Below, piece by piece: positions 18,666 through 23,512 of a stretch of 32,797 bases of DNA. The translations under genes were made by a program, and so were the position numbers. The notes under the pieces were generated by a model. The model searched no databases, was not told where the DNA came from, and was given only the letters and a program-made list of their open reading frames with translations. How positions within the stretch are numbered: the stretch's first letter is position 1; each line of letters starts with the position of its first letter. This stretch comes from an uncultured Lachnospiraceae bacterium (GTDB lineage Bacteria; Bacillota; Clostridia; Lachnospirales; Lachnospiraceae), in NCBI GenBank assembly GCA_946630035.1, contig CAMOYN010000002.1, positions 1-32,797 on the forward strand, read 5' to 3'.

Positions 18666-19856
18666 CTATTCCACGGAAATAATATCCGGGAGAAGATAGT
18701 AGAACGACGGATAGGAGGAGCGTTCATTCTCTAAAAAACCACCGTTCAGATCTATCGTAACGGAGGAATCCGTCGCACTGACCGCCGTCACGTCGGTTTT
18801 AAAGGCCTGACGTTTATTCCCCGTTTTAAACTGTCCGATCGCCTCGTCGATCTTCTCTTTCGTTCCGGGAGCCGCCAGCGCCGCATTCAGGTCCATCACC
18901 TCGACCCACCCATATTCAAATCCGGCGGATACATCGTTCCCATGAACATTCCCTTTTACCACACTTTCAATGGTCTCCCGGTTCAGCACCGCTTCCACCG
19001 CGGAGACAATATAAGGCGTCCAGTTGATTCTTGCCGCAATCAGCGCAGATCGCGGGGCTACTCCCAGCAGGCTCTGATTATAGGCGACATGGTACACATT
19101 ATGCGTCAGAGATGCCTCCTCGCAGGCCAGCACCGGACCGATGGTATCGGTGTGCTGCGATATAATCACACAGCCTTCCTGAATTAGTTCCTCCGTCATC
19201 CGCTTTTCCAGGGAAAAGCTGCCCCAGGTCCCGGTATAGCGCACGCGCATAAAGGCTTCCGGAGCCACGGAACGAGCCCCCAGGAGAAAGGCTGTATATC
19301 CGGAAATTACTTCCGGATCCGGGAAGGCAGCCACATAGCCGATGCACGCCTCCTCCGGAGTCAGGAGGCGACGATCGATCAGCTGCCGCAGAACACTGCC
19401 CGCAGCAATACCACTGACATACCGGGCCTGATAGGCTTCTCCCTTAAATGTGTGATAGTTTTCCGGGACACTCTCCTCACTCATATCCTTCCATGAGGCC
19501 TGGCAGAACTGCACCTCCGGATATTCCTTTGCCACCTCCAGGACCTGAGGGCTGTATCCATTCAGAAAAATGATACTGCAGCCTTTATTCACCAGATCTC
19601 TCAGAGGTTCTTCGGTTTCGTCATCCAGGACATTGCTGTGGCTTAGGATTTCAATGCGATCGTCATAAGTCTTTTTCAGCTCATCCGCTGCCAGTGAGAA
19701 ATTATAGGTGTACGAGGTACTTTCATCACTGTCATATACAAAACCCACATATATCTTTTCCTGCTCTACATTGGGATTAATCCACGTCTTGTAGACGTAA
19801 ACCAGGATCACTGCCAGCAGGCAGGTAGAAATCGTGGCAGCATATACACGCTTCAT
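18666..19856 (-). CDS. BMP/PnrA-like (Med family) substrate-binding protein, membrane-anchored, no lipobox
   Basis: IYVGFVYDSDESTSYTYNFSLAADELKKTY..., GEAYQARYVSGIAAGSVL, IGYVAAFPDPEVISGYTAFLLGARSVAPEAFMRVRYTGTWGS, NVYHVAYNQSLLGVAPRSALIAARINWTPYIVSAVEAVL; N-terminal TM (TISTCLLAVILVYVYKTW) without a lipobox Cys. Confidence 0.85.
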   Translation of the reverse strand: MKRVYAATISTCLLAVILVYVYKTWINPNVEQEKIYVGFVYDSDESTSYTYNFSLAADELKKTYDDRIEILSHSNVLDDETEEPLRDLVNKGCSIIFLNGYSPQVLEVAKEYPEVQFCQASWKDMSEESVPENYHTFKGEAYQARYVSGIAAGSVLRQLIDRRLLTPEEACIGYVAAFPDPEVISGYTAFLLGARSVAPEAFMRVRYTGTWGSFSLEKRMTEELIQEGCVIISQHTDTIGPVLACEEASLTHNVYHVAYNQSLLGVAPRSALIAARINWTPYIVSAVEAVLNRETIESVVKGNVHGNDVSAGFEYGWVEVMDLNAALAAPGTKEKIDEAIGQFKTGNKRQAFKTDVTAVSATDSSVTIDLNGGFLENERSSYPSFYYLLPDIISVE

Positions 19857-22800: not shown

Positions 22801-23512
22801 GACCGCAGGGCAGTCCGTTATTTCCGGAATACACGGTCTTTACATAATCGTTGTAATCCGTGAAATCAATATCTGCGGCCTGCACAGACATCGTTCCGAC
22901 CCCCAGTCCCAGCAGAAGGATCAGGAAACATCCGGCCTTCGTCCGCCGGACAGCCACCAGCTCGTCTTCCTCGGTCAGCCTCCGGAAGATCTTCACTATA
23001 ATGAAAAGTATCAGCACCAGAAGCACCTTATCTGAAAACTCCACCAGGAGCTGTCCCACGATGGCACACAGCATAAAGGACCAGCCCAGACTCTGGAAGT
23101 ACTTGATGATGGCGTCTCCCCAGATATTATTGGTATAGCCCTCGTTGACAATCCAGTTCAGAGGAAGAGAAATCGCCAGGGCTATAAGCATCACTACCAG
23201 GGCGGTTCTCATGGCCTCATACAGATTATCCATCCATTGGTATATGCCGGCAAATCCCATTATCACGCCTATACCGATACTTGTCAGAGAATATGCCAGT
23301 GCCATTGCATTCATGTGCCCGTAGAGCAGATTACTTGTCAGCCCCAGCAGCGCCCCGCAGCTCGGGCCAGCCATATAACCATATAACATCGTCCCCAGGG
23401 AATCCATCCAGAACGGCCACTGAAAATGAGCTGCCAGAACCCTTCCGCCCACATTAAGTCCGAGACACAACAAGGCAAACAAAACGATCTGGTACGTCTT
23501 CCACTTTCTCAT
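19853..23512 (-). CDS. Multi-TM N-terminus + extracellular regulator beta-propellers + Y_Y_Y-like domain + TM + HD-GYP c-di-GMP phosphodiesterase
   Basis: Repeated blades such as [33 protein letters not shown]_Y-like [75 protein letters not shown]...[18 protein letters not shown]...[35 protein letters not shown]. ATG 23512 has SD ggggagg. Overlaps the next gene by 4 nt. Confidence 0.92.
   Translation of the reverse strand: [1219 protein letters not shown]

Follow-up and report, generated by a model that had tools for sequence, protein, structure and literature searches.

What signal is read by a protein that joins an ECF S-component-type membrane domain to a double propeller and an HD-GYP output domain, and with which partner does it act? 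This question is raised by one gene in the window, the 32,797-nucleotide stretch of DNA from a rumen Lachnospiraceae bacterium analysed here as a whole and whose numbering is used throughout. To our knowledge the inputs of most c-di-GMP enzymes are unknown; at this locus the genome names a candidate ligand class for such an enzyme from two separate directions.

Domain organization of the sensor

The gene and its parts are listed with the evidence that delimits them.

19853..23521, minus strand: sensor gene (ECF-S, double propeller, Y_Y_Y, transmembrane helix, HD-GYP); open reading frame list and relatives
22964..23497, minus strand: ECF S-component-type membrane domain with six transmembrane helices, residues 9-186; NCBIfam and a separate model
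22871..22939, minus strand: hydrophobic linker, residues 195-217, a probable seventh transmembrane segment; sequence reading and a low-confidence model helix
21977..22867, minus strand: first seven-bladed propeller, residues 219-515; Reg_prop, strand count and VIA matches to single propellers over model residues 216-513
21056..21976, minus strand: second seven-bladed propeller, residues ~516-822; strand count and BT3049/BT4663 double-propeller matches over model residues 219-930
20732..21040, minus strand: Y_Y_Y domain, residues 828-930; Pfam and model strands
20561..20710, minus strand: transmembrane segment and continuous signalling helix, residues 938-987; a single helix, 935-984 in model numbering
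20075..20578, minus strand: HD-GYP output domain, residues 982-1149; HD_5 and invariant metal ligands

The open reading frame has 1222 codons counted from a GTG at 23521 to the stop at 19853. Relatives begin at residue 4 in the genome-scan alignments, so the ATG at 23512 is the likely start, in agreement with the initial annotation, which had placed the gene at 19853-23512. Pfam reports Reg_prop (E 1.8e-25), Y_Y_Y (PF07495, E 2.2e-06) and HD_5 (E 6e-34), all above cut-off. The NCBIfam model ECF_S_CD3073 matches residues 15-179 (E 9e-15) with 54.8 bits, far under its curated cut-off of 180, and identity with that equivalog is ruled out. A full-length AlphaFold2 model from 68 sequences (mean pLDDT 81.9) contains, in order, six transmembrane helices, a short hydrophobic segment, 14 four-stranded blades, a beta sandwich, a long helix and an HD-GYP bundle. 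This is the layout that had been proposed from the letters of the DNA, with a multi-spanning N-terminus, propellers, Y_Y_Y, a transmembrane helix and HD-GYP; Pfam, NCBIfam and AlphaFold all bear it out, and we regard the architecture as practically beyond doubt. Independent genomes contain about 60 relatives that are full-length and 57-62% identical, which rules out misassembly or a chance fusion.

Propellers dominate the list of PDB matches to the full model, and therefore the HD-GYP domain was judged by sequence and the S domain by a separate model. Folded alone, the N-terminal domain reaches a pLDDT of 89.1. ECF S components fill the first 20 places of its VIA list (Z 9-15), led by TmRibU (Z 14.9), ThiT (14.3) and FolT (14.1) over 147-156 residues, with RibU and BioY also at Z 12-15. 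The resemblance to ECF S components suspected in the initial annotation holds for the fold, which is that of vitamin-transporter membrane domains. Residues 195-217 that follow are probably a seventh transmembrane segment, judging from the sequence, and end in a signal-peptide-like VQA/AD. The helix count would give a protein with both termini inside and the propellers outside.

A manual count on the AlphaFold model finds the 14 blades between model residues 224 and 813, and the best PDB matches to the ectodomain (Foldseek, VIA-align) are the double propellers BT3049 and BT4663; the earlier estimate of about 14 blades, read as two seven-bladed propellers, holds, as do the Y_Y_Y domain and the helix after it. 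PF14203 TTRAP, LRRK2 and EML propeller matches are weak look-alikes and were set aside. The sensory layout had also been likened to that of Bacteroidetes hybrid two-component systems with HD-GYP as the output, which fits these top matches and the HD_5 domain that follows the transmembrane helix. Past that helix Pfam finds only HD_5/HD, and no histidine kinase, receiver or HTH was found in the sensor; because it has no kinase, it is not a hybrid two-component system. Nor do the data show it to be a transporter.

Distribution and evolution of the fusion

A genome scan for the sensor returned 80 loci, with titles that are nearly all Butyrivibrio, Lachnospiraceae or other Clostridia and samples mostly from rumen or ruminant gut; the identity given above extends over the full length in most of the loci that cover the gene. 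The sensory part has a relative in 76 of 299 Lachnospiraceae genomes, and about 40 of these carry the full ECF-S and propeller fusion. Across 398 genomes of the phylum the full fusion occurs in Lachnospiraceae only, two others matching the propeller part alone, so that a ubiquitous distribution is ruled out; the genome had already been described as Firmicute-like, and its relatives are Lachnospiraceae. The initial annotation had also considered that the architecture might already be catalogued as common in Clostridia. It is indeed common in rumen Lachnospiraceae genomes, but no description was found in the open literature searched, which covers few subscription papers.

The same input is joined to several outputs: HD-GYP, HD-GYP-REC, GGDEF, a hybrid histidine kinase with REC (and sometimes Hpt), or a lone HATPase. 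In a tree built on the propellers of 40 proteins, we count one change in S-domain presence and six changes of output. The S-domain tree agrees with it, and the branch uniting all S-bearing propeller proteins has a support of 82 on the propeller tree and 87 on the S-domain tree; both trees are quick ones with SH-aLRT support only. With these values, a plausible scenario is that the S domain was captured once and outputs were then swapped, which is likely and not certain.

The S-domain tree also holds a second, separate group of S fusions (support 99), comprising L153-L162 and L123:7871-9979, in which the S domain is fused to HD-GYP without propellers and which spans several Clostridia families. 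One of its members, L161, has a hybrid kinase output instead of HD-GYP, and the 700-residue forms have a middle region of about 300 residues with no Pfam match. In a same-genus genome, L112:3144-6431 joins a double propeller and Y_Y_Y to a SpoIIE-type phosphatase and lacks the S domain.

A constant neighbour encodes a Bmp-type binding protein

Two genes adjoin the sensor on the same strand.

18666..19856, minus strand: Bmp/PnrA-type solute-binding protein with an N-terminal membrane anchor; PF02608, linkage and pocket residues
23528..24490, minus strand: SBP_bac_3 solute-binding protein directly upstream of the sensor; PF00497 (E 4e-23) and neighbour tally

The Bmp gene starts within the last codons of the sensor gene, with a 4 bp overlap (ATGA), and its product matches PF02608 with E 8.5e-20 and 71.4 bits against a gathering threshold of 24.1. 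Among genome-scan loci with at least 1 kb of sequence downstream of the sensor, Bmp is the next gene in 73 of 73, and in 63 the overlap is exactly 4 bp. The other neighbours are scrambled: no upstream family occurs at more than 8 of 64 loci, and no gene following Bmp at more than 4 of 58. Strict linkage amid scrambled neighbours is strong evidence that both genes work together, and the two are very probably paired in function; their products may also touch physically. The Bmp-linked HD-GYP proteins form one clade of 17 on the propeller tree (support 100). Two sensor members without Bmp, L115 and L144, are sisters on that tree, and no Bmp homologue was found anywhere in their genomes at E 1e-5. 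No Bmp gene lies beside those fusions with other outputs that were examined. The initial annotation had overlooked the Bmp gene, as well as the swapping of outputs and the link between the S domain and nucleoside-phosphorylase ECF operons described below.

A neighbour tally of the relatives shows no ABC permease or ATPase recurring beside Bmp. A reading of the Bmp sequence finds no lipobox; IST-Cys12 precedes the hydrophobic stretch.

The SBP_bac_3 gene is probably in the same operon as the sensor here, and no transporter genes are annotated beside it; only about seven relatives have it, and it is ruled out as an obligate partner. Among the remaining genes of the window, a divergent gene at 24648-27617 (plus strand), beside the sensor operon, encodes two PAS domains, an EAL domain and a region that matches GGDEF weakly and in part; several members of the upstream family that recurs at 8 of 64 loci match its EAL part. 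A QueT-family ECF S component (PF06177, E 2e-48) lies at 30919-31410 (plus strand). Directly after Bmp, 11815-18419 (minus strand) holds an mraZ-mraW-PBP-mraY-murD cell-wall cluster, a neighbour that the relatives do not have in common. Elsewhere, SBP_bac_1 lipoprotein genes are located 19-25 bp upstream of two ECF-S/propeller/histidine-kinase fusions (L119:2610-3875 and L130:8892-10112), so that receptors of this type may have been paired with orphan binding proteins more than once.

Two leads to the ligand

The first lead comes from the Bmp pocket. The best PDB relatives of the partner Bmp are 3s99 and AtzT; AtzT binds guanine with a KD of 110 nM and the 3s99 site has adenine modelled (PMC6834077). 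Y49 and W211 of Bmp correspond to Tyr45 and Trp194, which form the sandwich in AtzT, and E182 to the acid Glu165; all three are kept in 75-76 of 76 relatives. AtzT Asn218 and Asn220 are replaced by His and Asp (H235 and D237), as in 3s99, and these are kept in 69 and 75 of the 76. Opposite AtzT Ser97-Phe98 the Bmp loop lacks two residues, and its ligand may therefore be something other than free guanine. The nearest paralogues, one of them within the same genome, are Bmps of ABC transporters and have the pocket residues in common. One paralogue, L187, has a purine riboswitch upstream (74.8 bits, Rfam) and an adjoining xanthine phosphoribosyltransferase gene (xpt); another, L188, also adjoins xpt. 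Rfam finds no riboswitch in the window.

The second lead comes from the S domain. The standalone proteins most closely related to it are the S components of ECF operons, adjoined by EcfT and EcfA in 12 of 12 genera and with a nucleoside phosphorylase-family gene directly upstream in eight of the twelve. The fused domains and these standalone S components have a signature in common, WxD (WLD) ... STPLN ... GYTGNxWGD ... PDK, which sits on the predicted extracellular face and is absent from CD3073-type and other standalone S components. A reverse search with a standalone S component returns 12 close standalone homologues, followed by the fused sensors and one weak further standalone match. The phosphorylase genes are PNP_UDP_1 members that score nearer to uridine phosphorylase models than to DeoD/purine models, below both cut-offs, and the S domain and Bmp might thus bind different compounds. 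No relevant literature on CD3073 and ECF nucleoside transport was found among the open papers searched. The two leads are independent, and both point to a nucleobase or nucleoside as the putative ligand.

A candidate two-gene receptor

These observations are consistent with a two-gene receptor, formed by an orphan solute-binding protein and the S-domain sensor, that would respond to extracellular nucleobases or nucleosides and tune c-di-GMP hydrolysis, a reading to which we give an even chance. Bmp, tethered by its N-terminal helix, would pick up a purine nucleobase or nucleoside from the surroundings and dock on the propellers, and this nucleoside, or a related one, may also be bound from the membrane side by the ECF-S-type domain. 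Binding would be read by the extracellular propellers and Y_Y_Y and passed through the transmembrane and signalling helix to the cytoplasmic HD-GYP domain, whose c-di-GMP phosphodiesterase activity would change in a direction that we can only infer.

Bacteroides double-propeller sensors sense glycans and sit in PULs, and the propellers here might likewise bind plant-polysaccharide fragments directly, as in BT4663, and control c-di-GMP, with Bmp and the S domain as accessories or a second signal. The best structural matches are the glycan-sensing BT4663 and its relative BT3049, many hosts of the sensor are rumen fibre degraders, and the kinase-type fusions L119 and L130 adjoin a gene of the sugar-type SBP_bac_1 family. 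However, no polysaccharide-utilisation genes recur among the scrambled neighbours, and the only neighbour found throughout is a Bmp whose pocket is of the purine type; we consider a glycan sensor unlikely, while still a serious contender.

The HD and GYP motifs, described as intact from the outset, are HDIGK and [11 protein letters not shown], satisfying the HDxGK and HHExxDGxGYP patterns; in the relatives the GY is invariant and the P is present in 67 of 68. The equivalents of PmGH H189, H221, D222, H250, H276, H277 and D305, together with D183 and K225, show no variation across 68 sequences, so that seven of the eight metal ligands are kept; the Glu185 position is Arg991, with Arg in 66 of the 68. 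Family members with seven metal ligands are known, and PmGH E185A retains residual activity (PMC4159591). The output is likely a working phosphodiesterase whose metal site is altered, and its presumed substrate is c-di-GMP. Cleavage of a different cyclic dinucleotide, or the status of a pseudo-enzyme, is suggested by its best PDB sequence match, the 3'3'-cGAMP phosphodiesterase V-cGAP3, and by Arg991, with which the domain fits neither subfamily of PMC4159591; but the remaining metal ligands do not vary, nor does the D183/K225 pair, the E185A mutant is not dead, and the GGDEF domains of sister fusions point to c-di-GMP, all of which makes this quite improbable. Slimmer still is the chance that the S domain docks on a shared EcfT/EcfA module and reports uptake flux rather than free ligand: its signature is kept, and EcfT, present elsewhere in this genome, has homologues in 10 of 10 genomes tested, but no EcfA or EcfT gene was found beside the sensor among the annotated neighbours in the window, and the domain has a 1000-residue ectodomain and an enzyme attached.

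More broadly, signalling proteins of Clostridia may have taken up ECF S components as receptor domains on at least two occasions, once with double propellers and then with phosphodiesterase, cyclase or kinase outputs, one branch having gained an orphan purine-binding protein to become a dual-input nucleobase or nucleoside receptor for c-di-GMP; we hold this tentatively, at slightly short of even. If the two-gene receptor is right, it would be a case of transport S components turned receptors and of a Bacteroides-style propeller sensor joined to a second-messenger output in Firmicutes. Butyrivibrio of the rumen would then set c-di-GMP by the nucleobases or nucleosides around them, which lysed neighbours perhaps release, and attachment or motility, we speculate, might be affected. 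As a soluble-domain partner, Bmp can be purified and tested at once.

Comparison with known systems

Each part of the sensor is known, and the combination appears to be undescribed in the open literature searched. The partner Bmp has PF02608 and the purine-sandwich residues in common with the Bmp/PnrA/AtzT purine-binding proteins, but has an N-terminal anchor rather than a lipobox, no transporter genes, a shorter pocket loop and an obligate sensor neighbour. The output resembles PmGH-type HD-GYP phosphodiesterases in its motifs, seven metal ligands and the D183 and K225 equivalents, and differs by the Arg at the Glu185 position and by its transmembrane propeller input. The S domain has the fold of the CD3073/FolT/ThiT/RibU components and the signature of those in nucleoside-phosphorylase-linked operons, whereas it is fused, has no EcfA/EcfT found alongside and scores far below the CD3073 cut-off. 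In Clostridium perfringens ReeS, another sensor from Firmicutes, the regulator-propeller and Y_Y_Y domains are flanked by two transmembrane helices (PMC3762733); ReeS is similar in these domains and differs in its histidine kinase output, and a six-helix membrane domain is not described in it. The Bacteroides hybrid two-component sensors BT4663, BT3049 and BT4673 have the same two seven-bladed Reg_prop propellers, Y_Y_Y and single transmembrane helix before the output, whereas here HD-GYP takes the place of the kinase, receiver and AraC domains, a six-helix ECF-S domain is added and a Bmp gene is linked. We regard the sensor as a propeller sensor with a second-messenger output and a transporter-derived receptor domain.
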